Shown here one piece after another: positions 42,787 through 56,076 of a DNA stretch of 64,000 bases. Numbering within the stretch: position 1 is the first letter of the stretch; each line of letters starts with the position of its first letter. Source of the stretch: Calothrix sp. PCC 7103 (GTDB lineage Bacteria > Cyanobacteriota > Cyanobacteriia > Cyanobacteriales > Nostocaceae); the NCBI RefSeq assembly GCF_000331305.1, contig NZ_KB217478.1, forward strand, positions 5,677,595 through 5,741,594, written 5' to 3'. Under the pieces are notes generated by a model. It had not been told where the DNA came from and searched no databases. It worked only from the letters and a program-made list of their open reading frames with translations. The position numbers and the translations under genes are program-made.

Positions 42787-43590
42787 ATGTGTTTTGATCA
42801 TACCTGCCTCGAAGATAAATTTGATAACCTCACTGCTTCAACTCCCACACATAACCAAAATCTACTGATTCTTGGCTGCTGCCAACGCAAGAGTTTTGAC
42901 TCAGGATTGTTACCAGCTATCTCTAGATACAATGGTCCAACCTTTCAAGTGCTGCGTAAATTTCTGAAGCAGCAGCCCCAAAATTTTAATTTTTTTAGTA
43001 TTTATATATTATCAGCAGAGTTTGGTTTAATTCCTCAAGATTTCCTCATCCCGTATTATGACCGACGAATGACATCAAGTAGAGCTATGGAGTTGCAGTC
43101 AAATACGATAGAAAAATTAGGTGAGATTGCCAATTCTAGACCCTACAAAGAGGTTTTTATTTGCATAGGTCAAAGTTACTATCGTTCTATACAAGGATAT
43201 GAGAAAATACTGCCTGCAAATTTAAATGTACAAGTAGCCTCTGGTAGTTTGGGTAGAAAGTTAGGGGAGTTGCATGAATGGTTGTATGGGAAACCACCAC
43301 AGCTACCCCAAAGCTCTCAAAAAAAGATAGATTTAGGCAAAAACCTAACAATTAAAGGCATAGAAGTTGTACTGACTACACAGCAAGTACTTGATATTGC
43401 TTACCAGTCATTAGAGAAAAATAATAAAGAATTCGCTAACTTCCAATCCTGGTATGTTGTTGTTGGACATAAGCGTGTGGCGCCCAAGTGGTTAGTCAAT
43501 CAAATTACCGGGCTGCCTGTAAGCAACTTTTCCACGAAGGAGGCACTGCGGTTGTTGGTGCAATTAGGTATTGAAATTCACAGAGTATAG
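42787..43590 (+). CDS. DUF6884 (YaaA-like) protein with C-terminal extra domain
   Basis: 267 residues. Residues about 24-175 match DUF6884: LLILGCCQRKS, SRYNGPTFQVLRKFLKQ, YILSAEFGLIPQDFLIPYYD and FICIGQSYYRSI. The C-terminal 85 residues (IEVVLTTQQVLDIAYQSL to TKEALRLLVQLGIEIHRV) form a separate small domain that I cannot name; it looks like a DNA-binding wing-type module. YaaA-like proteins have been linked by gene neighbourhood to TGT-like base-exchange enzymes of DNA modification, and such an enzyme is encoded at 53369 at the other end of the nuclease block. That link is inference. The gene has one GGCGCC site, so it may lie on the boundary of the island. Confidence 0.72.
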   Translation: MCFDHTCLEDKFDNLTASTPTHNQNLLILGCCQRKSFDSGLLPAISRYNGPTFQVLRKFLKQQPQNFNFFSIYILSAEFGLIPQDFLIPYYDRRMTSSRAMELQSNTIEKLGEIANSRPYKEVFICIGQSYYRSIQGYEKILPANLNVQVASGSLGRKLGELHEWLYGKPPQLPQSSQKKIDLGKNLTIKGIEVVLTTQQVLDIAYQSLEKNNKEFANFQSWYVVVGHKRVAPKWLVNQITGLPVSNFSTKEALRLLVQLGIEIHRV

Positions 43591-43645: not shown

Positions 43646-43806
43646 ACTGTAAGATTTTGTGGGTCTTATGGCAATTCAATATTAGGAGCGATACTTGGAG
43701 GATATTGAATGCGTGAAGTGCGTATATTTTTTGATGACCACTGTAAGAATTTGCCTTGCTCGTGGCAATTAAATATCAGGGGTGATGTTTAGGAGGTGAC
43801 ATTGAA
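43646..43806 (+). repeat. Imperfect direct duplication upstream of the island sigma gene
   Basis: About 65 bases (43646-43709 and 43740-43806) are repeated with roughly 70 percent identity, including the ribosome site and the start region. In reading frame the copies encode DCKILWVLWQFNIRSD and HCKNLPCSWQLNIRGD, so the duplication is of a small coding unit. The second copy is part of a 27-codon frame at 43709-43792. Confidence 0.6.
43709..43792 (+). CDS. Possible 27-residue leader peptide upstream of the sigma gene
   Basis: ATG 43709 with GGAGG about 8 bases upstream opens a frame beginning MREVRIFFDDHC, containing WQLNIRGDV and ending at TAG 43790-43792, 9 bases before the sigma-factor start. 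An upstream, more degenerate copy encodes a similar peptide (CKxLxxxWQxNIRxD pattern). Repeated coding pattern plus a ribosome site support translation; the function is unknown, perhaps a leader that couples translation of the sigma gene. Confidence 0.35.
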   Translation: MREVRIFFDDHCKNLPCSWQLNIRGDV

Positions 43807-44473
43807 ACGACAATTAGGGCAACCAGTACACTCATCCTATGACCCTGAATTGCGCCAGAAACAGCAGTTGCTAAGTCAGGCAGTCCAGGAAGAGTGGCAA
43901 GTTCTTCAAAATACAATTCAAGTTTACGTGATTCGAGTGATAAAGCAATTTGGGGATAAGTTAGGTAAAAGTTGTGATCGCAATTCTATAGAGGCAATAG
44001 CAAAGGAAATTTTGCATGAAACTGTGGAGACGGCTCTCAAAAAAGCTGATAAATTTGACCCTAACCGTTCGCCTCGTTTTTGGTTATTAGGTATTGCCAC
44101 AAAAAAAATCCAACGGTGGCAACGTCAACAAACCCAACAAAATGAGCGAATGATGCCCATCGCTGAACTTCCACTCGCTCGTAAAATTAGACAGCAAAAT
44201 TCAGAAATAATTTCAGAAGAGGAAATTTTAGGAATATTATACGAGTCATCAAATTCATCTGACCCCGAAATGTTGGAATATTTGCTGTCTTTGGTAAATG
44301 ATAGTTATCGAGAAGTACTGAAATTTGTTTTTGTTGACGCTCTAGATGGAGAATCCTTGGCTGCTGCGTTAGGGACAACAGTTGGAACCGCTTACACCAA
44401 AAAGTCTCGTGCGATCGCGCAGTTACGTCAAGCTTATGCCCAAAGTAACAAGTCATCAGAGGAGGGCAGATAA
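43802..44473 (+). CDS. RNA polymerase sigma factor, ECF-like, of the nuclease island
   Basis: 223 residues from TTG 43802, chosen because AGGAGG lies 5 bases upstream; GTG 43796 would overlap that ribosome site. Region 2 is recognisable around residues 50-110 (KADKFDPNRSPRFWLLGIAT, KKIQRWQRQ) and region 4 near 170-210 (LVNDSYREVLKFVFVDALDG, ESLAAALGTTVGTAYTKKSR). It is first in a co-directional series running to Rad50, so it may direct transcription of its own block. The next gene starts one base after its stop, as is typical for sigma/anti-sigma pairs. A GCGATCGC (HIP1) site occurs at 44411. Confidence 0.82.
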   Translation: MKRQLGQPVHSSYDPELRQKQQLLSQAVQEEWQVLQNTIQVYVIRVIKQFGDKLGKSCDRNSIEAIAKEILHETVETALKKADKFDPNRSPRFWLLGIATKKIQRWQRQQTQQNERMMPIAELPLARKIRQQNSEIISEEEILGILYESSNSSDPEMLEYLLSLVNDSYREVLKFVFVDALDGESLAAALGTTVGTAYTKKSRAIAQLRQAYAQSNKSSEEGR

Positions 44474-44474
44474 G

Positions 44475-45128
44475 ATGCACAAACAAAACAACCAGCATCC
44501 AGACTCCCGTGAAAAAGCCATTCAATTATATGTACAGGCTTTAGACGAAGGCGACATGGAAGTAGTAGCCCAAATACTTGATGCTGCTTGCTATGACCCT
44601 GAATTAGAACAAATTATTACGGAAATTAATTCAGCTTACCAGGAGGAAGAACAGATAACACCAATCGCTACCGACGCGGAAATAATTAGAAGTTTACTCC
44701 ACAAGCACCTGTATAGTGCATTTGAAGTTATTCAAGAAGATGAAAAACCTTTAATTTTTGAAGACATTGACGAAGAAGAAAAACCAGTAACAGTTGGCGA
44801 TGTTGTTAAGCGTTTGCAAGATATTAACCGCGTACCGTCAGCAGATAAGGATATTGTCAGTCAATTACTTGACAGTTCCATTCCACTGCCAGTCAAGCTC
44901 AGTATCCAAGCCGTTAGGCAATTAGCGGTCGAATTAGGAATTAATGCGAGCGAGCGATTCTTGGATATATTTCGAGATACCGCCATTACTTTATCGATGG
45001 GACGCAGCCACAATAGAGCGCAATTAGCCGCAGCCCGCCAACAAACAAGTCGGCATAAGTCCATATCGAATAATCGCCAACCAATAGAAAAAAAGCTCAA
45101 AAATAATACTGAAGTCGATAAAACATAG
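44475..45128 (+). CDS. Acidic protein of unknown function, possible anti-sigma partner
   Basis: 217 residues from ATG 44475, which follows the sigma stop by one base and has GGAGGG upstream. The first 50 residues (REKAIQLYVQALDEGDMEVV, DPELEQIITEINSAYQEEE) form an acidic helical module that I recall next to sigma factors in other bacteria. Residues about 125-180 are a second helical part, and the C-terminus is basic and polar. No membrane segment and no zinc-binding HxxxCxxC motif is present. Control of the upstream sigma factor is inferred from coupling only. The next gene follows with no gap. Confidence 0.65.
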   Translation: MHKQNNQHPDSREKAIQLYVQALDEGDMEVVAQILDAACYDPELEQIITEINSAYQEEEQITPIATDAEIIRSLLHKHLYSAFEVIQEDEKPLIFEDIDEEEKPVTVGDVVKRLQDINRVPSADKDIVSQLLDSSIPLPVKLSIQAVRQLAVELGINASERFLDIFRDTAITLSMGRSHNRAQLAAARQQTSRHKSISNNRQPIEKKLKNNTEVDKT

Positions 45129-45926
45129 ATGATACAAGAACATCGTCGTACTATAATTTCTCAGGCTGTAGAATTGGTATATCAAGAAGCTGGACTGGAG
45201 TTAAAAAATCTTAAACCTGGTGTTATCCCACTGTATGACTTAATTCGGGCTTATCCAATTAGGGTAGCGGAAATCAAAGAAATGACCATTCAAAGTGTTT
45301 CTGAATTTTTAGAATTAGAAACTGGGCAAAAGCTACCTTTTACAGATAGCGAAAACCAAGATTTAAAGTTAGCTGGATACTTGTATTTACTAGAATACAA
45401 AGGTTTTTTTTACGGTTGTATTTTAGTCGAACAGAAACCCCATTTAGCTCCTGTATCACGTCGGCGGTTTTCAGCAGCCCATGAGTTAGGACATTACTTG
45501 TTACATTTTCTTCCTTTACTTGAAAGTCATCAAGAAAATAGTTTTAAAGAGCCTTTAATTTTAACAGAGGGTTTATACGTTAAAAATAAAAGTGAAGATG
45601 ATGAAAGCAAAGATGATAACGATAGATCAACGGCAAAATTTACCTTTACAAATGGCATAAAAGCAGTCATTGATTCCCTTAACATAGATGAAAAGCAAAT
45701 GGAAGCCGAAGCCGACCAGTTTGCGGCTGAACTTTTGATGCCAGCTTCGGCTTGTTTCGCCTTAGCTAATAAGTTTCGTGGTCGATTTGGGACAAAAAGA
45801 GATGTTTTAGCGAAACGATTGGCAACCGAGTTTTTAGTTAGTCAGGACGCGATGAAACGACGTCTGAAAGATTTGCAATTACCAGAAACACTTTTAGATA
45901 CTAATTCAAAAACAGCTAGAAAATAA
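45129..45926 (+). CDS. ImmA/IrrE-family metallopeptidase
   Basis: 265 residues. The zinc site is RRFSAAHELGHYLLHFLP (HExxH type) with the third ligand region EAEADQFAAELLMPASACFA, and residues 210-260 form the usual C-terminal helical domain. ImmA cleaves phage-type repressors in mobile elements and IrrE cleaves the repressor DdrO after DNA damage. By analogy this one could cut a regulator and switch on the downstream DNA-end-processing genes when DNA is damaged. The target is not evident: no Xre-type repressor is in the block, so the preceding acidic protein is the nearest candidate. The start is immediately after the previous stop. Confidence 0.88.
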   Translation: MIQEHRRTIISQAVELVYQEAGLELKNLKPGVIPLYDLIRAYPIRVAEIKEMTIQSVSEFLELETGQKLPFTDSENQDLKLAGYLYLLEYKGFFYGCILVEQKPHLAPVSRRRFSAAHELGHYLLHFLPLLESHQENSFKEPLILTEGLYVKNKSEDDESKDDNDRSTAKFTFTNGIKAVIDSLNIDEKQMEAEADQFAAELLMPASACFALANKFRGRFGTKRDVLAKRLATEFLVSQDAMKRRLKDLQLPETLLDTNSKTARK

Positions 45927-45943
45927 GATAAATATACAGAAAT

Positions 45944-47002
45944 ATGGGATTAGATTTTATTAAAAACTACAGTGGTTGTCGCGTAGATCAATATGATGTA
46001 CAGTTTCCTTTATTGGAAGAAGAAATAGACGAAGAACTGGAACAAACCTTAGAAAAAGTTGATTTAGATTATGAAGTCAAACCCCGTGCGATTGATTGGG
46101 AACCTATCAATTTAAGCACCTCACCCAACTGGCGACCAAGTAACTGGCATGAACGTCCAACTCACTTTATAGATGGTAAAGACGTGGGGGAAACAGTTGC
46201 TTCCGTGCGTTCTCCTAGCGGTCAGTTAGTTCCTATTCGCCTTTCCCAAATCGGCAGTATTTCCATGCGGGTAGAAAACGGGGAATGTCGGCGTGAATTT
46301 GAAGTTGTCGATCGCGTGGTATCGATGGCAGTAGACCTTTTTCCTTGGATGGAAGTAGAGAGTTTTGCCGCTGCTTTACAAAACAATGGATTTCGTTTGC
46401 TACCAGTTCGTCCTCCTGGTGGGACATCTTCCTATGATTTTGAAACCATGCGAAAGCGAACTCAAAACCGTTCTAATACGGAAATGGAAGCATTAGAAGA
46501 ATCTGCAATTTCCCAAAGTGGCGGAGAACCAACAGTAATAGATGGACGATTACAACCACGGATGGGTGGTTTTGAAGCTGATGATTCCCCCGTTTTTGGT
46601 GTGATTAAAACCCAACGCCAAAATTACTTACACATCAAAGGGATACAAGTTCTGTACGGTCTTGAAGCTGGTCAACGTACACCAGTATTCACTATATCGA
46701 GAGGATGGCTACCTGTTGTTTCCTGGTTTGTTCGTCTTTCTGGAGGAGGTGGTGGAACTCCCAGCACGGGAATAGTGCGCGTGGAAGCATCAAAAAGCTG
46801 GTTTGAAAAGTATCACAAGCGCAATTGGGACTTTGTGGATAAGTTATCCCGAACTATATACGAGTACCGTTGTAGAGAGCGCAGTTATGGACGTGCTGCT
46901 ATTTCCCTACACCCGATTGTTCGAGCCGAAGAAAGTTTAGGTTCCCTTTTTCAACCACTAAGTATCCTATCTAATCGTTTTTACCATCTAACCCAGCTAT
47001 AA
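45944..47002 (+). CDS. NurA-like nuclease domain protein (partner of HerA)
   Basis: 352 residues. Residue D77 in THFIDGKDVGETV fits the first metal-binding Asp of NurA (IDG motif). A later segment SPVFGVIKTQRQNYLH and the C-terminal RSYGRAAISLHPIVRAEESL resemble the remaining NurA motifs, and the gene sits directly upstream of a HerA-like ATPase gene, the classical NurA position. NurA is a 5'-3' nuclease that works inside the HerA hexamer to resect DNA ends. The assignment rests on motif positions plus context; the protein is divergent, so sequence alone is moderate evidence. It starts 17 bases after the ImmA stop. Confidence 0.68.
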   Translation: MGLDFIKNYSGCRVDQYDVQFPLLEEEIDEELEQTLEKVDLDYEVKPRAIDWEPINLSTSPNWRPSNWHERPTHFIDGKDVGETVASVRSPSGQLVPIRLSQIGSISMRVENGECRREFEVVDRVVSMAVDLFPWMEVESFAAALQNNGFRLLPVRPPGGTSSYDFETMRKRTQNRSNTEMEALEESAISQSGGEPTVIDGRLQPRMGGFEADDSPVFGVIKTQRQNYLHIKGIQVLYGLEAGQRTPVFTISRGWLPVVSWFVRLSGGGGGTPSTGIVRVEASKSWFEKYHKRNWDFVDKLSRTIYEYRCRERSYGRAAISLHPIVRAEESLGSLFQPLSILSNRFYHLTQL

Positions 47003-47024
47003 GGTATAAAATTCAACTAAAAAT

Positions 47025-48893
47025 ATGAGTGATGAAGTTTTAATTCCAGAATTTGATGTCAACGGAAATGGTGCCCATACGGGTACAGCGAACGCCTCGG
47101 AGACAGATAGCATAGAAGATATAAATACATCAGCTAGTACTCCTGGTGTCAGAATTATCGGTAAAGTCGCATCGCCACCGCAGAAAGAATCTACTTCAGA
47201 AAAGTTTCATTTTTGGGTGCGACGAGACGAACTGGTTGAAAAAACTCAAATTGTTCGTACCGAAAGTCATGTTGGCGGTGAGACAATAAATTTTTACGCA
47301 ATTGTAGAAGAAGTCTACCGACAAAGCCGCAAAAAAGATATTGGCGAAGAATTTGACGCTTTTGACGGCAATGTCGATTACCAACCGGAATTTAGAGGAG
47401 AAGGAGTTACTTTTGCTACTGCTACAATTTTGCGTACAGAACGCCCTGTTTTAGCTCCACCTTTAGAACAAAGTTCGGTTTTCTTAGGTGATGAAAATGA
47501 TGCTCAACGTGCGTACAGAGCAGATGAAATCGATAATCCCTTAGCAATTGGTTTGATTAAAAATGGTGGAAGTGCGATCGCCGGACCAGGGGTGATAGAC
47601 CTAGATTATCTACTAGGCATTAATGGCGGACACATGAACGTTAACGGTGTCGCTGGTCGAGGAACAAAATCCAGTTTTTTACTGTTTGTTATTTATCAAT
47701 TATTGCGGGAAGCACGTCGGCGTGCTGAGGAATATCCATCAGACCCAAATCCCCTGATGGTTGTCCCTATAATTCTCAACGTTAAAGGCTATGATTTATT
47801 CCACATTAATCGCTGGAGCAATAGGTACATACCCGAAGAACATTTAGGGGACTGGCGAAGATTGGGTGTCGAGAACCCAAGACCTTTTGAAAATGTCACC
47901 TTTTTTGCTCCGCAAATGCCTGGTGGCAATATAGCTGTTACAACTGGATGTCGTAGTGAAGTGCAGCCTTACAGTTGGAGCCTTGCCAACATTATTGAAA
48001 AAGGTTTATTTACTTACTTATTTGCTGACGATGATTCCATTAACGACAACTTTAGATCTTTAGTTCTGGATTTAGAAGCTTACCTAACACATGAAAGAGT
48101 CGAAAGCGATGGTACTGTAACCCGCAGTTTGCAAAATAATGTACCTCGAACTTTTCAAGAACTGTTAGATTGGTTAGGAAACGGAGAAAATCGAGAACAT
48201 TTACCTGGAGACCATCACAGAGCAACTTGGAGCAAATTACGCCGCAAGTTTCTACTAGTGGTATATGAAGGAAATGGGGTACTACGTCGCTACGACCAAA
48301 ACGGCCATCCTCTCGATTTAGGCCAACGACAAACAACAGACCCGATAGTTGTTGATTTGAACGCTTTAACGCGAGTGCCATCTTTGCAGCGGTTTGTTGT
48401 CGCCACAATTCTCCAACAATTAGTTAATGAACGTACCGGAGCCAACCGCACTGAAGGACTAGCTTACCTAATTGCTTTGGATGAACTGAACCGTTTTGCT
48501 CCCCGTGGTTCCAAAGACCCTATCACGCAATTAATAGAAACCGTCGCAGCTGAGATGAGATCGCAAGGAATAATTTTACTCGGCGCCCAACAACAAGCCT
48601 CAAAAGTTTCCGAAAAAGTAATTGAGAACGCTAGTATCCGCGTAATCGGTCGTAGCGGAAGTCTTGAACTTTCTCAATCTATCTGGCGTTTCTTAAGTAA
48701 AAGTAACGAGCGCAAAGCTGCGGAACTGACTGTCAGCGAAAAAATGGTGATTCAGGATAACGAACCAATGCACGTTCGAGTACCCCTTCCTCCTTGGGCG
48801 ATGAATCCTAGAGAAGCAACAGGTAGTCCCGTTATTGATGTTGATGCAACAACCGTGGAAGAAGACAACGACGATGATATTGCTACTTACTAG
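47025..48893 (+). CDS. HerA-like hexameric DNA-translocating ATPase
   Basis: 622 residues. An N-terminal HAS-barrel (about 40-80, GVRIIGKVASPP, FHFWVRRDELVEKTQIVRTE) precedes an FtsK/HerA-type ATPase. Walker A is GVAGRGTKS (208-216), unusual because Thr stands where Gly normally precedes the Lys. Walker B is YLIALDELNRFAP with D486/E487, followed by an ATPase sensor region (QGIILLGAQQQASKV) and an arginine-rich IRVIGRSGS. HerA forms a ring that pumps DNA and drives NurA. The C-terminus is acidic (EEDNDDDIATY). The gene starts 22 bases after the NurA-like stop and has a GCGATCGC site at 47574. Confidence 0.87.
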   Translation: MSDEVLIPEFDVNGNGAHTGTANASETDSIEDINTSASTPGVRIIGKVASPPQKESTSEKFHFWVRRDELVEKTQIVRTESHVGGETINFYAIVEEVYRQSRKKDIGEEFDAFDGNVDYQPEFRGEGVTFATATILRTERPVLAPPLEQSSVFLGDENDAQRAYRADEIDNPLAIGLIKNGGSAIAGPGVIDLDYLLGINGGHMNVNGVAGRGTKSSFLLFVIYQLLREARRRAEEYPSDPNPLMVVPIILNVKGYDLFHINRWSNRYIPEEHLGDWRRLGVENPRPFENVTFFAPQMPGGNIAVTTGCRSEVQPYSWSLANIIEKGLFTYLFADDDSINDNFRSLVLDLEAYLTHERVESDGTVTRSLQNNVPRTFQELLDWLGNGENREHLPGDHHRATWSKLRRKFLLVVYEGNGVLRRYDQNGHPLDLGQRQTTDPIVVDLNALTRVPSLQRFVVATILQQLVNERTGANRTEGLAYLIALDELNRFAPRGSKDPITQLIETVAAEMRSQGIILLGAQQQASKVSEKVIENASIRVIGRSGSLELSQSIWRFLSKSNERKAAELTVSEKMVIQDNEPMHVRVPLPPWAMNPREATGSPVIDVDATTVEEDNDDDIATY

Positions 48894-48905
48894 GGAGGAG
48901 ATAAG

Positions 48906-50144
48906 ATGAGAATTTTACACACATCTGACTGGCATTTAAACGATAAATTGGGGCGAATACCCCGCCAAGGAGATATTGTAAAACGTTTAGAGGAAATCGC
49001 TAATTACTTGGACGAACATAAGGTAGATGTAATGGTTGTTGCTGGTGATTTATTTAGCCAGTACAACCGACTTGACGAACTAAAATCAGCCGTTGGGGAA
49101 ATGAGGGATGTTTTTCAGCCTTTTCTCTTAGGAGGTGGCACAATTGTCACCATCAGTGGCAATCACGATAACGAAGCCTTCTTTAATTTAATGCGCTTTG
49201 CTCTTGACCTTGCCGACCCAATAGACCCAAATAAAGCAGGTGCAAGACCAAGTGGAAGACTTTATTTAGCAGCACAACCAACTTATTTATTACTAGAAGA
49301 TAAAGCTGGTCAGCAAGTCCAATTTGTTTTGATGCCTTATCCAACTTCGTCCCGTTATTTAAAAGACGAAAAAACGCGATACGGCAGCATAGACGAGAAA
49401 AATAGTTTGCTTCATCAATCCATGCTTCAAACAATTGACCGTATAAAGAATAAATATATAAATCGACAATTACCAAGTGTACTGGTTGGTCATGCACACA
49501 TTCGCGGTAGTCAACTACATAATCTTTATCGTATCAGCGAACGCGAAGATGTCGTTTTCGATGCAGGAGATATCCCTACTAATTGGACTTACGCTGCCTA
49601 TGGTCATATTCACAAAGCACAAGCTTTAGCAGGTACTACCCATGTGCGTTATTCCGGTAGCATTGAGCGTCTCGACTACGGTGAAAGAGACGATGAAAAA
49701 AGTGTTGTTTTAGTTGAAATTGGCACCAAAGGTCGGACTCAAGAACCAGAATATTTACCACTCAATGCCACACCAATATATAGCATAGAAATTAATAATC
49801 CTGAAGAAATAGCAAGCCTTAACCATAAATATCCAGAACTAGAGAGAGCATTGGTTAAGTATAAACTAACCTATAAACCGGGCGAGCATAACCGCGATAA
49901 AATTTGCCGCGAACTGGATAAAATTTTCCCCCGTTGGTACGACCGGGAAATAGTAATTGATGGTTCATCAGTATCCATTAAAAGCTCCACTTTAGTTACC
50001 GATACGCAAGATGTAGCAACAACTGTACGTGAATATTTGCAACAGCAATTAGCAGGGCATCAAGATAAAGACGCGGTATTGGCATTGGCGGAACAATTAT
50101 TAGCTGACGAAAAATTTGTAAATAATTCAGAGGTAGAAATATGA
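48906..50144 (+). CDS. Mre11/SbcD-type DNA nuclease
   Basis: 412 residues with all phosphoesterase motifs: ILHTSDWHLN (I), VVAGDLFSQ (II), TISGNHDNE (III), VLVGHAHIRG (IV) and YGHIHKAQ (V), so the two-metal site should be active. The family is the nuclease of the SbcCD/Mre11-Rad50 complex, which opens hairpins and blocked ends and trims double-strand ends. A ribosome site GGGAGGAGATAAG precedes ATG 48906. The stop overlaps the Rad50 start (ATGA), so the two subunits are translationally coupled. It is distinct from the usual chromosomal sbcD in being linked with HerA and NurA. Confidence 0.93.
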   Translation: MRILHTSDWHLNDKLGRIPRQGDIVKRLEEIANYLDEHKVDVMVVAGDLFSQYNRLDELKSAVGEMRDVFQPFLLGGGTIVTISGNHDNEAFFNLMRFALDLADPIDPNKAGARPSGRLYLAAQPTYLLLEDKAGQQVQFVLMPYPTSSRYLKDEKTRYGSIDEKNSLLHQSMLQTIDRIKNKYINRQLPSVLVGHAHIRGSQLHNLYRISEREDVVFDAGDIPTNWTYAAYGHIHKAQALAGTTHVRYSGSIERLDYGERDDEKSVVLVEIGTKGRTQEPEYLPLNATPIYSIEINNPEEIASLNHKYPELERALVKYKLTYKPGEHNRDKICRELDKIFPRWYDREIVIDGSSVSIKSSTLVTDTQDVATTVREYLQQQLAGHQDKDAVLALAEQLLADEKFVNNSEVEI

Positions 50145-53100
50145 TTCCTGTTCGAGTTTCTGTTAAAAATTTTATGAGCTACCGCGAGGAACAAACATTA
50201 CTTTTTGATGGCGCTCCATTGTGGGTTTTATCGGGAGAAAATGGTACAGGTAAATCGACAATTTTTGATGCAATTCGCTTTGCTTTATATGGCAACCATC
50301 GCGGAGGAGGTGTAAAAACTCAAAAAGACTTAATTAATCATAAAGCTGATGCATTAACTGTTGAATTTGATTTTCTTGTGGATGGCGAAGCCTATCGTAT
50401 TCGTAGAACAGTTCGCAAGCGTGGAAAACCGACAAGAGAAGTTTTTCGCATTAATTCGTCATCAAAAGGAAAACTTTGCATCGAGCCAGAAGCAAATACA
50501 GATAGTGATGCTGGTTTTAAAGACTGGGTAAAACGCAAAATTGGTTTAAATGATGATGCTTTTACGTCATGCATACTGCTGATTCAAGGCAAAAGCGACA
50601 AATTAATAGAAGCTGCACCATCGGAGCGTTACAAAATTCTGAAGCAATTGATAGATTTAACAGCATATGACAAATTACATCAACTTGCAGATACTTGCCG
50701 TAAAGACTGTGAAGTACAGTTAAAAAATTTGAAACAGCAATTTGAAATATCAGAAACAGTGAGTGACGCAGAATTTAATGCGGCTCAAGAAGTACTAAAG
50801 CTAACTGAGGAGAATTGGAATAAATCACAACAAAAAGTAGAAAAATTAGTTACTATACTCGAAAAATCTAACCAATGGCAACAGTTAAATTCCCAAGTAT
50901 CAGAACAGAAAGGTGATTTACAGAAATGGCAAGAATTGATAGCTCATACTGAAGAGATAGAACAAAAATTTACGCGCTACAAAGAACTAGAAACTGTTCT
51001 ACCTCTTCTAAGTTCTATTATTGAGCAACATCAACGCACTATTGATAATGAAAGTCAGATTGAGAAACTTAACCAGAATTGCCAAAGCATAAATGATGAC
51101 TTAAAAATGGTATCTTCTGAAAGAGATGAACTGAATAACCAAATTGAACAAATCAGACATCAAATTGAAAGTAGACAGAATGATAACAACTATATTGCTA
51201 ATCGTTTAGTTGAACTAACTCCTCTAATTGAAAAAGTATTACGGTTAGAGGAAATTCAAGTAAATTTGCAGGAAATAGAGCAAACTTTGGCTGCTTTCCC
51301 TTCTAATTTAGAGAAATTATTACAGCAAGCAGAATCAGAAGGCAAGCAATTGGAGGAGATTGAAAAAACACTGCCTTGGTTAAAACAGCTTGCCCAGGCA
51401 CGTAGTAAATTGATAGATGCTGTACGCATAGAAAAAGAAGCCAATCAAAATTTAGAGTCTTTACAAGATGAGTTAAAGGAATATCAAGCTCAACGAGAAA
51501 AATTAAATATTGATATTGTAGATACTCGTGCAACTGATAAAAAATTATCCCACAATATAACTCGTATTCAAACCGAGTATGAAGCTGTTTTAAACAAACG
51601 TGATAATTTTGAAAAAGCATCTCATCAACCCACATGTGAGTTATGTGGACAAAATATTACACCTGAACACGCTAAAGCAGAGAAAGCACGTCTACATTCT
51701 CAGATAGCGGATGCTGAAGCTAATTTAGATAGTCTTAATAACGCATATCGGAAGGTGCAGGAGAATTTCAATTTACTCTCAACAGAATTAGATAATTTAA
51801 ACAACCAAATTCAAGTAAGAAACAACGATTGTAACCAAACTAAAAATCAGCTAAGTCAAGCGCAACGAGATGCTAAACAGTATACGGAACAAATTAAGAA
51901 TGCATTTTGCAACTTGCCAGTAGCTTACCAGGTAAGTGTTTCTCCGTATGTTATATACGATGATTTAGGCTGGCTTGATACTAGTTACCCAGCAGAAGCA
52001 GATTTGGAAGAGCTAAATCATCTGCTAAGTAATCAACAAACTCATACTCAAAAGTTAAACAAGCTACGCCATCAATTCTCCGAATGGCAAATTGTTAATA
52101 CAGAACAACAAACTTATCGTAAGCAGTTCGTGGAACTTGAGACAAATTTGCCACTATCTGAGGCGACTGAAGCACGTAACGAAAAAAATAAATTACAAGA
52201 ATCACAAAAGGAACTGCAATCAACTCTTAAAGCACTCAAAAACAAACAAACTTTGGCACTTAATAATCTTCAAAAAATTGATGGAGAAGTTAATGCATTG
52301 TCAAATAAATTGCGACAAAATGAAAACGATTTGATTGATAAAAGGGGTTCCCAAAGTGAAACTCAACGCCGCTTACAATCCGATTTAGAAAGTTTACCAT
52401 TGCAGTGGCAAGAACAGGTAACAAGCATTGATACTGAAAAGCTAGAAGAGTTGGTAAGTGAAAAGAATATGTTGGCTAAGTACGAAAAATTATCAAACCA
52501 ATTAAATATTGCTAGTGAATCAGTAACCTTTCTACAGCAGCAAATTAGCAATTTAAGCAACCAGATTGGACAGTTACCTAACGAGGCAAAACGTGCTTCT
52601 CAAGAAGTTGAGCAAGAACTTGCAACTGCTAAATTCGAGCGAGATACTTTTGATGGAAACCGACAGGATGCTCAAAATAGCTTTAATGAGCTTATTCGCA
52701 AACGTAAGTCGTATCAGCAACTTGAACAACAAAAGCTTGAAGCAGAACGTAACCAAAGCTTATATAAAATACTTTGCGATTTACTAGGTAATGGAAAACA
52801 AGGTCTGCAATTAAAATTGTTGCGCGATGCAGAACAGGCTATTGTGCAGCTTGCCAATGAAATTTTAGACGGTTTATCACGCGGAAAAATGCGATTGGAA
52901 TTACGTGGAGAAGTAGAAGAATCTGGTGCAGAGTCTAGCAAAGCTCTTGATTTATTAGCATATAACGAAGAAATTGGGCTGTATCCCACACCAATAGCTC
53001 AAATAAGTGGTAGTCAGCGATTCAGAGTTGCCGTTAGTTTAGCATTGGCAATCGGTCAATACGCTGGACAAGGCGCACGTCATATAGAATCAGTCATCAT

Positions 53101-53293
53101 TGATGAAGGCTTTGGTAGTTTGGACAAAAACGGACGCGATGATATGATTCAAGAACTTAACGAATTACAACATCGTCTAGCGCGCATTATTTTAGTTTCT
53201 CACCTAGAAGACTTTTCCTGTGCTTTTTCTAACGGTTATTCTATTGAGTTAGTTAATCAAGCCTCAACAGTTAGACCTTTAGAACTGCCATAG
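50141..53293 (+). CDS. Rad50/SbcC-type SMC ATPase with zinc hook
   Basis: 1050 residues. The N-terminal ATPase half has LSGENGTGKST (about 31-40). Two long coiled-coil arms (about 180-480 and 515-900) flank a zinc hook with CELC at 499-502 (PTCELCGQNITPEHA). The C-terminal half has the signature ISGSQRFRVAVSLALAIGQ (about 955), Walker B VIIDEGFGSLDKNG (about 985) and the switch LVSHLEDF. The signature shows SGSQRF rather than SGGE. Rad50 bridges DNA ends and gates the Mre11 nuclease. The start overlaps the Mre11 stop by 4 bases. Base composition is AT-rich and GGCGCC is absent. Confidence 0.94.
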   Translation: MIPVRVSVKNFMSYREEQTLLFDGAPLWVLSGENGTGKSTIFDAIRFALYGNHRGGGVKTQKDLINHKADALTVEFDFLVDGEAYRIRRTVRKRGKPTREVFRINSSSKGKLCIEPEANTDSDAGFKDWVKRKIGLNDDAFTSCILLIQGKSDKLIEAAPSERYKILKQLIDLTAYDKLHQLADTCRKDCEVQLKNLKQQFEISETVSDAEFNAAQEVLKLTEENWNKSQQKVEKLVTILEKSNQWQQLNSQVSEQKGDLQKWQELIAHTEEIEQKFTRYKELETVLPLLSSIIEQHQRTIDNESQIEKLNQNCQSINDDLKMVSSERDELNNQIEQIRHQIESRQNDNNYIANRLVELTPLIEKVLRLEEIQVNLQEIEQTLAAFPSNLEKLLQQAESEGKQLEEIEKTLPWLKQLAQARSKLIDAVRIEKEANQNLESLQDELKEYQAQREKLNIDIVDTRATDKKLSHNITRIQTEYEAVLNKRDNFEKASHQPTCELCGQNITPEHAKAEKARLHSQIADAEANLDSLNNAYRKVQENFNLLSTELDNLNNQIQVRNNDCNQTKNQLSQAQRDAKQYTEQIKNAFCNLPVAYQVSVSPYVIYDDLGWLDTSYPAEADLEELNHLLSNQQTHTQKLNKLRHQFSEWQIVNTEQQTYRKQFVELETNLPLSEATEARNEKNKLQESQKELQSTLKALKNKQTLALNNLQKIDGEVNALSNKLRQNENDLIDKRGSQSETQRRLQSDLESLPLQWQEQVTSIDTEKLEELVSEKNMLAKYEKLSNQLNIASESVTFLQQQISNLSNQIGQLPNEAKRASQEVEQELATAKFERDTFDGNRQDAQNSFNELIRKRKSYQQLEQQKLEAERNQSLYKILCDLLGNGKQGLQLKLLRDAEQAIVQLANEILDGLSRGKMRLELRGEVEESGAESSKALDLLAYNEEIGLYPTPIAQISGSQRFRVAVSLALAIGQYAGQGARHIESVIIDEGFGSLDKNGRDDMIQELNELQHRLARIILVSHLEDFSCAFSNGYSIELVNQASTVRPLELP

Positions 53294-53368: not shown

Positions 53369-54394
53369 ATGCAAATTGTTGCTGGTATCAGCCTTAAGGG
53401 AATCAAACCTCGCGTGTGGGATAAAAACTCTCCTTATTATCTTCCACAATTGCGAGCAGTTATGGTTTCCTATGCCGAATTTCATCAAAAACCCGTGCTT
53501 CGACGTAAAGTTATGGAGCAAGGTCTTAAAGAATATCTCAGTATCCCAGAAGAAGTAAAGCTTTACCTTGACAATGGAGCTTTCTACTTTATTAGTCGTG
53601 GTGGAGAAATAGTACCAAACGACTATGAAGAATTTGTTCAAGGTGCTAAACCAGACTGGTGTCCAATTCCTCAAGATTTTATCCCCACTCCAAAAATGTC
53701 ATTGTCCGAGCAGAAAAAATGCTTCTCTCGGACAATGAAAATGAATATTGCTTATAAAGATAATCAATTTATTCCTGTTATTCATGTTAGTAATTTTTTA
53801 GAAGAATATGTTGTAAGAATTAATAAAAATAAGGCACTCAGACAAAAAACAGGTATTGCATTAGGTGGGATTGTTCCCAATTTACTACGGGCGCCAAAAG
53901 CCGTACCATACCAACAAATTTTGGATAATATTCAATATGTCCGAGAAGAATTTAAAGATAAAAAACTTCATGTATTTGGGATTGGAGGTACTGCAACACT
54001 ACACATAGCCGCATTATTAGGAATTAACTCTGTAGATTCAAGCGGATGGAGAAATCGAGCAGCTCGTGGAATAATACAGTTACCTGGGACAGGGGAGCGA
54101 ATAGTTGCTGAGTTAGGGAAATGGAGAGGTCGCAAACTAAGTGAGAAAGAATTTAAAAAATTAGATGAATGCCAATGTCCTGCATGTAAAATCTATGGAA
54201 CAAAAGGTCTTCAAGAAAGTGGTAGCATTGGCTTTTGGAATCGGGCTACCCATAATTTATGGGTACTTATAGAAGAAGCTCGATTGATTGAAGAACATTT
54301 AACACTAGGTATTTATAAAGATTGGTATTCAAGCCATTTAGACAATACTACTTATCGTCCTCTTATTAACAAATTAATTGAAATATGTTTATAA
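53369..54394 (+). CDS. tRNA-guanine transglycosylase-like protein (DpdA-like), predicted 7-deazaguanine base exchange
   Basis: 341 residues with a TGT-type TIM barrel. VKLYLDNGAFYFIS places D68 where TGT has its first catalytic Asp (DSGGF). TGIALGGIVPNLLRAP corresponds to the GGL substrate loop. LHVFGIGGTATLHIAALLGI leads to NSVDSSGWRNRAARG, in which D223 matches the nucleophile. The zinc site CQCPACKIYG (C268, C270, C273) with a later His is that of TGT. Rather than housekeeping Tgt, its short length and divergence suit the DpdA group, which puts preQ0 into DNA. It lies 75 bases after Rad50 on the same strand. PreQ0 synthesis genes would have to be elsewhere. Confidence 0.78.
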   Translation: MQIVAGISLKGIKPRVWDKNSPYYLPQLRAVMVSYAEFHQKPVLRRKVMEQGLKEYLSIPEEVKLYLDNGAFYFISRGGEIVPNDYEEFVQGAKPDWCPIPQDFIPTPKMSLSEQKKCFSRTMKMNIAYKDNQFIPVIHVSNFLEEYVVRINKNKALRQKTGIALGGIVPNLLRAPKAVPYQQILDNIQYVREEFKDKKLHVFGIGGTATLHIAALLGINSVDSSGWRNRAARGIIQLPGTGERIVAELGKWRGRKLSEKEFKKLDECQCPACKIYGTKGLQESGSIGFWNRATHNLWVLIEEARLIEEHLTLGIYKDWYSSHLDNTTYRPLINKLIEICL

Positions 54395-54462: not shown

Positions 54463-54813
54463 TTGTCCTTAACATCCTACCTATATTTTCAAAAATCAAA
54501 TCGGATTTCTATAGTGCAAGAACATAGTCGTACTAAAAAATCTAATAATGTAGTAACTTTTTACTTTTTAGTACTATATGCCTGGTCGGGGTGGGTTAGT
54601 TTATTTGGGTATCGTAATTCTAATTGACCCATCTTTACCATTTTGCTAAGGTATCCAAGCCTTAGCGTATTATATGAGCGACCTAACAATTCTTGAAGTT
54701 GTTTATGGCTTAAAAATCTTCCTTCACAAACTTGGAGAATTGTTGCCTCCATAACTTGAGTTGATACCTTACTTTTATTTCTGACGGCACCAGCAATTGC
54801 TAAAAGCAATTCC

Positions 54814-54939
54814 CAATCATCAGAGCTAGGCGCCAAATCATCAGAGCTAGGCGCCAAATCATCAGAGCTAGGCACCAAATCATCAGAGCTAGGCACCAAA
54901 TCATCAGAGCTAGGCACCAAATCATCAGAGCTAGGCACC
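54814..54939. repeat. Six tandem 21-base units in the pseudogene
   Basis: Units AATCATCAGAGCTAGGCNCCA are repeated six times plus a partial seventh. Two of the units carry GGCGCC and the rest GGCACC. In the reverse frame each codes for SSDDL(V/A)P. Confidence 0.9.
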
Positions 54940-55019
54940 AAATCATCAAGAATTTCTTCTGATATAACCCCTGACAATAAATCTTCGGGGCTAGTGGTCT
55001 GTGTCAAAAGTTTTGGTGT

Positions 55020-55105
55020 GTTCTCTTCTCTTATTTCTTCCTTTGCGCCCTTCGCGTACTTTGCGGTTCGTTTTTTGTACTCCCCAAAATTAATGACACG
55101 AACCA
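55020..55105. repeat. Dispersed TTTGCG...CTTCGCG-type repeat inserted in the pseudogene
   Basis: The stretch TTCCTTTGCGCCCTTCGCG followed by TACTTTGCGGTTCG is a repeat seen throughout filamentous cyanobacterial genomes between genes. Its insertion separates the two halves of the AlbA/RecG-like gene and adds the basic peptide EYKKRTAKYAKGAKEE to the downstream half. Confidence 0.65.
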
Positions 55106-56076
55106 CTAGTTTTGTCAAAAAAATTATAGTTTTGAGCTACCAGGTCAACTTCCCCGTTAGGTGGTTGCCCAGGAAAAAAATAGAAAGTTCCACGAGCAAT
55201 GCCATCAGATTCAAGGAAGCCATCCCTTACAAGGGTAGACAAAGCCTTGGTTAGATCACGTGGATGAGTAGTACTCATACACTTAAGCCGAGCATGGGTA
55301 ACTTTTCCCTCAAGTGCTACCGTTACTAATGCAAGGCGTTGATCGTCTGATAGTTCACGGAATTTCGAGCCAAATCGCTCATCAAGTGCCTTGATAGTTT
55401 CTTCTGGCAATAGATTAATCATCAACATTGCCAGTAATGTTTGATCTGGCTCTACTTCTTCTGAGAAAGCTGGCAAGCGCCAGTGTTGCTGACTCCAGTT
55501 ACGATAAATTTTGGGAATACCAGAACCAGCTTGTTCTCCAATACCTACAAGCTGAAACATTTTCTGTAACTTGCGATTACGGCAATCACTCGTACCACCG
55601 CGTAAGGCATCTTCTAAAGACAGCCTCATTATGCCAGGGTTGCGAAATACAAACATATCAGGGCGTTTGATAATCTGTATCGGTACTCGCCCAGTATAAT
55701 CAGCGTGAATTATTGTGTTAATTAATGCTTCTCGTAATGCTTCATGTACAGGTGTGTCATCTACTCGTTTGGCGCCTTTAAGCTTGAAGGGAACCTTGAG
55801 ATCAGAGAAAAGTTTTTGAATAATTTTGCGGTAAAAATCGTAAAGGTTTCCTGACCATGTGCCATCTGTGGTAACACGATCTACCCACCGAGTCTCCGTT
55901 CTTGGTTCTGGACGCTCTTGATAATCCACTACATAATGAGGTACTGCTTCAAGGATTGACGGAAGTTTACCAAACATTAACAAACCTGCTATGGTCAATC
56001 CTTCGTTGCCTGTCTGGCGATCACGTAACCAACCACCAATTGATTGTAAAAATTCTTTATCGTCTTGATCTATAAA

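Follow-up and report, generated by a model that had tools for sequence, protein, structure and literature searches.

A candidate inducible system for degrading foreign DNA joins NurA-HerA and SbcD-SbcC to a putative sigma/ImmA switch in Calothrix sp. PCC 7103

Calothrix sp. PCC 7103 carries an operon that unites four DNA-end-processing enzymes with putative regulators of their expression. It lies in a window of 64,000 nucleotides, the whole stretch of DNA analysed here (contig NZ_KB217478.1, positions 5,677,595 to 5,741,594 of the forward strand). Seven co-directional, tightly packed open reading frames (ORFs) at 43802-53293 on the plus strand encode, in this order, a sigma factor of the extracytoplasmic function (ECF) type, a small protein, an ImmA/IrrE protease, NurA, HerA, SbcD and SbcC (Table 1). 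The successive intergenic gaps measure 1, 0, 17, 22 and 12 bases, and the SbcD and SbcC genes overlap by 4 bases. An earlier note on this DNA had named these seven genes and the overlap, and all of the ORFs were confirmed where it had placed them. Its list lacked two flanking genes, which enclose the operon: one for a DUF6884 protein upstream and one for a tRNA-guanine transglycosylase (TGT)-like enzyme downstream. The system most likely extends to this flanking pair, referred to below as the bracket.

Table 1. Features of the operon and its flanks, in window coordinates
Feature	Position	Strand	Basis
DUF6884 (YaaA-like) protein, 267 aa, upstream half of bracket	42787-43590	+	PF21818 1.8e-9, above cut-off
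Promoter-like motif, copy 1	43647-43676	+	CTGTAAGA-N14-TGGCAATT
Promoter-like motif, copy 2	43741-43770	+	94 bp beyond copy 1, ahead of GGAGG and TTG of the sigma gene
ECF-type sigma factor	43802-44473	+	TTG start behind GGAGG; TIGR02937 5.3e-12, above cut-off; Sigma70_r2 7e-6, above cut-off; r4_2 below cut-off
Small, mostly helical protein, putative sigma partner	44475-45128	+	
ImmA/IrrE (M78) metalloprotease	45129-45926	+	Peptidase_M78 PF06114 1.8e-11, above cut-off; HELGH motif
NurA nuclease, Deinococcus type	45944-47002	+	profile match to 7f6d_H, 1.1e-49
HerA DNA translocase, Deinococcus type	47025-48893	+	profile match to 7f6d_B, 2.8e-194; Walker A GVAGRGTKSS; DE box LDELN
SbcD/Mre11 nuclease	48906-50144	+	TIGR00619 7e-30, above cut-off; motifs DxH/GNHD/GHAH/GHIH
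SbcC/Rad50 ATPase	50141-53293	+	TIGR00618 1.7e-48; AAA_23 3.6e-23; Walker A, CELC hook, signature, DEGFG
TGT-like (DpdA/TgtA superfamily) guanine transglycosylase, downstream half of bracket	53369-54394	+	PF01702 4.7e-8; phrog_887 2.2e-12

Family scans and motifs bear out the earlier identification of the sigma factor, the protease, SbcD and SbcC. The sigma factor contains regions 2 and 4. For the small protein behind it, an ATG at 44475 fits better as the start than the mechanical TTG ORF from 44382. The best PADLOC match of the ImmA/IrrE protein is CapP (1.3e-17), which together with CapH functions as an ImmA-class sensor system. SbcD has the expected phosphoesterase motifs, and SbcC has both ABC-ATPase halves and the zinc hook; its match to TIGR00618 is full-length, with a score below the family cut-off. 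A second SbcD-like gene lies elsewhere in the same genome (E 1.8e-9), and the operon SbcD is therefore probably accessory.

By profile comparison, NurA and HerA are of the bacterial Deinococcus type, not the archaeal one, and the earlier NurA-like and HerA-like calls were right. A profile of 17 NurA-like sequences matched D. radiodurans NurA in the PDB and, less strongly, Thermotoga TM1739 (3.8e-19), and a profile of 19 HerA-like sequences matched D. radiodurans HerA with full-length homology. Activity of the D. radiodurans nuclease requires D53, K201 and R309, as described in PMC9960219; the counterparts D77, K222 and R317 are invariant in the 17 NurA sequences. An AlphaFold model of the NurA-like protein reached a mean predicted local distance difference test (pLDDT) score of 44 and was not used, the PDB profile match taking its place. 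The window thus shares both families and the catalytic residues with the D. radiodurans pair (7f6d; PMC9960219). Unlike that pair, it places them in an operon with SbcD-SbcC, a sigma factor, ImmA and a small protein, inside the DUF6884/TGT bracket. The archaeal HerA-NurA-Mre11-Rad50 resection operon likewise holds the same four enzyme types, so the label "archaeal-style" given in the earlier note fits the gene set and fails for the type of the NurA and HerA sequences. The window further differs from the archaeal operon in its own sigma/ImmA switch and in being sporadic and mobile.

The seven-gene grouping is not a product of chance, because its order recurs in other genomes. Linkage of the genes, on which the earlier note had staked its proposal, is found in Nostocales and beyond: a plasmid of the chloroflexote Chlorohelix has all seven in the same order (HerA 58% identical). 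A plasmid of Aulosira laxa has the complete set in this order as well (HerA 44%). Close relatives, with HerA 84-91% identical, are Calothrix CSU_2_0, Brasilonema bromeliae, Chlorogloeopsis fritschii and Mastigocoleus testarum, in which the gene order is that of the window as far as the contigs extend; low-coverage contigs have broken frames in Calothrix CSU_2_0 (HerA, SbcD) and Brasilonema (ImmA). Of 386 genomes of the phylum, 12, among them the source genome, have HerA relatives. In M. testarum BC008 the same 22-kb operon stretch stands on two long contigs (L011 and L012), through duplication or as an assembly artefact.

The enzymes also occur in simpler arrangements. The earlier note knew of no described system that joins all four to a dedicated sigma factor and an ImmA switch; blocks of NurA-HerA-SbcD-SbcC as such proved not to be unique to the window among bacteria. 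This shorter order, lacking the sigma factor and ImmA, was found at six loci (L016, L019, L021, L038, L040 and L043), and two actinobacterial loci (L015 and L018) have a four-gene block with NurA last. The NurA-HerA and SbcD-SbcC halves stand 7 kb apart in L020, HerA-SbcD-SbcC was seen with no NurA detected in L037, and five further loci (L039, L041, L042, L044 and L045) hold HerA relatives with no SbcCD detected. A distant HerA relative (26%) also lies on a viral-classed contig (L121, IMG/VR 3300045912_000930), between unassigned ORFs of 391 and 411 aa.

The DUF6884/TGT bracket encloses more than one kind of HerA core. TGT homologues were found in 5 of 386 genomes of the phylum and 12 of 340 genomes of the order, overlapping samples that give 13 genomes in all; one of these, G163, has its TGT at a contig end with no upstream sequence and was left out of the cargo count. 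DUF6884 sequence lies upstream in all 12 informative genomes, and an intact HerA with a partner lies between DUF6884 and TGT in 10 of them. The other two are G534, with a broken HerA and an open partner frame, and G575, with no recognisable pair. The ten intact brackets hold cargo of three distinct lineages: core I (n=6), core II (n=3) and core III (n=1, the window). Core I consists of HerA followed by a partner of about 550 aa that is weakly NurA-like. Core II consists of a clear NurA (PF09376 9e-9 to 1e-10, above cut-off) followed by HerA (DUF87 2e-23 to 6e-28); the profile of its NurA gave no PDB match, and this NurA had no plasmid match at the limits used. Core III is the seven-gene operon type of the window. 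The HerA proteins of the three cores belong to one superfamily and are far apart in sequence, and the gaps between core and TGT are short.

Within one genus, the HerA/partner pair has been swapped precisely between the flanking genes. Two loci of this genus, L055 and L101, are 98% identical in TGT, 95% in DUF6884 and 93% in a flanking gene, with only 23% identity at the NurA position and 22% at the HerA position; their DNA homology breaks at the DUF6884 stop codon and just ahead of the TGT start. Comparison of the Chlorogloeopsis and Aulosira loci (L010 and L014) indicates that core III is itself mosaic. They share 10 kb at 96%, with NurA 99% identical, and this stretch ends between nurA and herA; beyond the breakpoint, HerA is 46%, SbcD 31% and SbcC 26% identical. 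A second, small mosaic tract was noted in the same pair, where a block of about 500 bp at L010:6751-7250, mostly in the sigma gene, is 79% identical amid flanks of 96-100%. In a TGT tree of 14 rows, the core labels change five times for core I and three times for core II, and well-supported branches force at least four and at least three changes, respectively. These numbers about equal those obtained with shuffled labels, and core III forms a single clade. Three rows were left out: L012 holds the 22 kb already represented by L011, L017 was treated as one stretch with L046, and G163 has no sequence upstream of its TGT.

The sequence features of the DUF6884/TGT pair suggest that it likely marks DNA with 7-deazaguanine. 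The TGT profile matched archaeosine TGT in the PDB (1iq8, 7.7e-8); its match to a DNA-guanine transglycosylase (7ui4, 8e-4) is weak. Alignment with archaeosine TGT shows that the enzyme keeps the catalytic aspartates D68 and D223 and the zinc ligands C268, C270, C273 and H295. The DUF6884 protein has additional matches to PF03883 YaaA (8e-4, below cut-off) and PADLOC PDC-M57A (8e-7); it had no meaningful match in the PDB, and no phage match was seen at the limits used. This combination of a TGT with a complete active site and a YaaA-like partner resembles the Dpd 7-deazaguanine system, of which one component, DpdC, is DUF328/PF03883 according to the description in PMC12839542. A weak DpdC match (3e-4) was seen only for the L054 homologue of the DUF6884 protein. 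Unlike a Dpd system, the window has no DpdB match among the nine window proteins scanned, its bracket contains HerA cores, and its TGT is not a DpdA equivalog, since it scores 27 bits against NF041059, far below the cut-off of 200 (PADLOC DpdA 3.4e-8). BREX-Related Capture (BRC) resembles the window in associating a HerA/FtsK translocase with a TGT, as described in PMC12839542. The PglZ, DUF6079, DUF4007 and STAND-NTPase parts given there for BRC were not matched among the nine proteins, and that paper does not mention NurA.

The genes around related TGTs bear on the proposed mark. Synthesis of preQ0 needs queC. A queC match over the cut-off was found in all five bracket genomes tested and is clearly full-length in four, the match in G163 covering 61 positions. 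Such matches also occur in 11 or 12 of 14 control genomes, so the presence of queC merely permits marking. A TGT 82% identical to the host copy in L054 is encoded on a phage contig (L122, IMG/VR 3300016466_000585) that also encodes a P22-type coat protein and a large terminase. The same contig has two genes with PAPS-reductase domains and, by eye, repeated paralogous ORFs upstream of its TGT. Distant TGT relatives (25%) stand on two haloarchaeal plasmids (L123 and L124), beside queC-folE-queE and a queD-type gene. Both of these loci also have a protein annotated as BREX ATP-binding, and in L124 Csa3 and an HNH endonuclease are nearby.

Upstream of the operon, two promoter-like motifs point to control by its own sigma factor. 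The core TGTAA[GT]A-N14-TGGCAATT occurs in tandem, 94 or 95 bp apart, before the sigma gene in six distinct loci, which are all the core III loci of Nostocales examined, the window included. Across the 11.6 Mb of the genome, CTGTAAGA-N(14-22)-TGGCAATT is matched exactly at two places, both before the sigma gene, and a reversed-pattern control has no match; by this exact motif, the sole pattern used, no wider sigma regulon was found in the genome. Homologous sigma genes on two Nostoc plasmids (L068 and L069; E 3.9e-40 and 2.2e-37) are preceded by a more degenerate tandem pair, recognised by eye. We infer that the two boxes of the motif correspond to -35 and -10 elements.

The small protein can be followed through its N-terminal domain of about 80 aa, which recurs directly behind the homologous sigma gene in the two Nostoc plasmids. 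There, the ORF continues after this domain into a part annotated in the records as a second sigma-70 factor, in which no Pfam sigma domain was found at E 0.01. The full-length protein occurs in 1 of the 386 phylum genomes, that of Calothrix sp. PCC 7103 itself. Family scans of the protein alone gave nothing useful, and a Foldseek search with its AlphaFold model (mean pLDDT 58) matched nothing at E 0.001 or better. Together, the tandem motifs and the recurring domain support the view that the predicted sigma factor is dedicated and self-controlled and that the small protein acts in regulation; the dedicated sigma factor had already been proposed in the earlier note. Elsewhere in the genome, two loci with similar gene sets, L065 (G000 C12:365000-374000) and L066 (G000 C7:8754000-8763000), carry the N-terminal domain with a receiver and a LuxR helix-turn-helix (HTH) domain, and a third, L067, holds a shorter relative with a receiver only.

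By analogy with PprI/DdrO and CASP, the small protein may be an anti-sigma factor that ImmA cuts. CapH/CapP and PprI/DdrO resemble the window in using an ImmA-class protease as a sensor of damage or infection, and the ImmA-family protease PprI is activated by single-stranded DNA (PMC10904395). Unlike in these systems, the presumed partner of the window's ImmA is not an HTH repressor but an ECF sigma factor together with a small helical protein. In CASP (Cas7-11/Csx29/Csx30/sigma), a protease cleaves a sigma inhibitor within a defence locus and so frees the sigma factor, in the account given by PMC10028731; this is the logic proposed for the window, where no CRISPR part was seen, the protease is a metalloprotease rather than a CHAT protease, and the small protein has no family match.

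The operon is mobile and sporadic in occurrence. Its site in the window lies after polA and before tRNA-Pro/lipA, and all six congeners have remnants or no trace there. G001, G003 and G006 show no trace (the two sides are about 750 bp apart in G006, and the far side was not reached in G001). A scrap of the TGT is left in G002, and DUF6884 survives together with fragments in G004. In G005, DUF6884 is broken, only the end of SbcC is left, and an internal stop interrupts the TGT. This distribution indicates that the operon is often lost or absent. Decay follows no consistent order of loss among G024, where an intact TGT stands beside broken enzymes, the Brasilonema locus L009, G004 and G005. The contig that carries the window copy measures 8.8 Mb, and some distant relatives are on megabase contigs; other copies, in Chlorohelix and Aulosira, are plasmid-borne, and the 10 kb that Chlorogloeopsis shares with the Aulosira plasmid takes in the plasmid-recombination (Mob-type) gene. 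Known defence genes adjoin two loci. Wadjet JetA2-D2, an anti-plasmid system, borders the Streptomyces block L015, and HmaC, TIR and PD-T4-6-type kinase genes border the Chlorohelix copy L013. In addition, some 9 kb separate the L016 block from a cas6 annotated in the record. For the DNA-end-processing or anti-phage module inferred in the earlier note, mobility, sporadic occurrence and defence neighbours at two loci count as support.

The reading favoured here, held at roughly even confidence, is that the block would destroy foreign DNA as an inducible system that spreads horizontally. A cue such as single-stranded or broken DNA during infection would activate the ImmA/IrrE protease, which may then remove the small protein and so release the dedicated ECF sigma factor held by it. 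The freed sigma factor would fire the tandem promoters and turn on the whole operon. SbcD-SbcC would open or clean DNA ends and load the HerA ring, which in turn would pump DNA into the NurA dimer for degradation; the underlying end-processing chemistry is known for the Deinococcus and archaeal relatives of these enzymes. The bracket, usual in Nostocales, most likely marks DNA with 7-deazaguanine and would help to discriminate self from foreign DNA without being strictly required.

Several findings weigh against this reading. Mastigocoleus has an intact seven-gene core without DUF6884/TGT, and no TGT was found in its genome; the Chlorohelix plasmid, of which the plasmid sequence only was considered, carries another intact copy without the pair, and the promoter-like motif was not found upstream of its operon. 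Single-sequence scans of the window NurA gave no Pfam, PADLOC or NCBIfam match, and those of HerA gave weak matches only, in PADLOC and elsewhere (NF040819, E 0.026). In core I, PF09376 was seen in five of the seven partners scanned, with a best E of 4.7e-4, none in L054 and a score below cut-off in L096, and the partner profile had no nuclease match in the PDB. The small protein matched no anti-sigma family or fold, and the genome has three further loci at which its N-terminal domain is joined to a response-regulator receiver, with a LuxR HTH in two cases, so the small protein need not be an anti-sigma factor. Finally, the defence-family scan of flanks covered L015 alone among the distant NurA-HerA-SbcD-SbcC blocks.

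A broader proposal is put forward more tentatively, as a possibility that falls somewhat short of an even chance. It holds that these loci may represent a new class of immune system, in which a TGT and DUF6884 marking pair serves as a socket for interchangeable HerA-nuclease engines. The most elaborate version would add Mre11-Rad50 and the switch of sigma factor, small protein and ImmA, and phages would carry the same TGT as a disguise for their DNA. HerA-anchored defence and TGT-linked defence have already been described (PMC12839542 and PMC10853773). In the open-access library searched, no paper was found on a DUF6884/TGT bracket with HerA-NurA, and none joining HerA, NurA, SbcC and "defense island". 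If correct, the proposal would connect end resection by HerA-NurA-Mre11-Rad50, the marking of DNA with 7-deazaguanine and sigma factors switched by proteases, three subjects treated apart so far. It would provide testable cases of a marking pair reused with different degrading engines and of a phage carrying a presumed mark-writing enzyme. It would also offer a reason for NurA-HerA in bacteria, given that their loss in Deinococcus raised survival of UV and mitomycin C (PMC9960219).

The same genes could form a strict restriction-modification system, in which TGT and DUF6884 mark host DNA, HerA-NurA with or without Mre11-Rad50 destroys unmarked DNA, and the modifier is essential. The conserved bracket with its three exchangeable HerA cores would suit such a system, as would the permissive presence of queC in the five bracket genomes and the haloarchaeal TGTs beside preQ0-type genes, and a phage TGT so close to a host copy is what evasion would predict. 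This explanation is nonetheless unlikely, because the Mastigocoleus core is intact in a genome in which no TGT was found. Brasilonema L009, on a low-coverage contig with a frameshifted ImmA, likewise has open NurA, HerA, SbcD and SbcC frames next to remnants of DUF6884 and TGT, and a DpdB-like partner is missing among the nine proteins scanned. TGT as an obligatory antidote was rejected on the same ground, namely that cores with open frames exist without it in Mastigocoleus and Brasilonema L009. The Chlorogloeopsis TGT is on another contig than the operon, and no TGT was found in the Calothrix metagenome-assembled genome, whose contig ends in SbcD.

Destruction of foreign DNA must also be weighed against an auxiliary, damage-induced operon for repair of double-strand breaks, as in thermophilic archaea, where the same four proteins act in end resection (described in PMC5715905 and PMC2288612). 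An ImmA-type damage sensor would fit this role. The sporadic and partly plasmid-borne occurrence of the operon, its deletion or absence in congeners, the second SbcD-like gene of the genome, the swapping of cassettes and the defence neighbours at two loci make it doubtful. In addition, knocking out nurA-herA in D. radiodurans increases resistance to high-dose UV and mitomycin C about 10-fold (PMC9960219).

It is less probable still that the bracket is merely an integration hotspot whose genes do not work together with the enzyme cores. Core III does lack the bracket in Mastigocoleus and in the Chlorohelix plasmid copy, but in the two genome samples all 10 genomes with both bracket genes intact carry a HerA and its partner as cargo, from three lineages, a result not expected of a neutral hotspot. 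The core-to-TGT gaps are also short. A plasmid-borne competition or maintenance module that strikes rival replicons instead of phages appears very improbable, since the window copy and some distant relatives stand on contigs of megabase size, even though the Chlorohelix and Aulosira copies are on plasmids, a Chlorogloeopsis contig shares the Mob-type gene with the Aulosira plasmid within the 10 kb at 96%, and Wadjet adjoins the Streptomyces block.

Beyond the bracket, the minus strand of the window at 54561-55998 has adjacent ORFs of 185 and 302 aa; a 21-bp tandem repeat, present in 6.4 copies, lies in the first of them. Their counterpart in the congener G005 (L114:3514-5517) is one ORF of 667 aa, so the window copy appears split.

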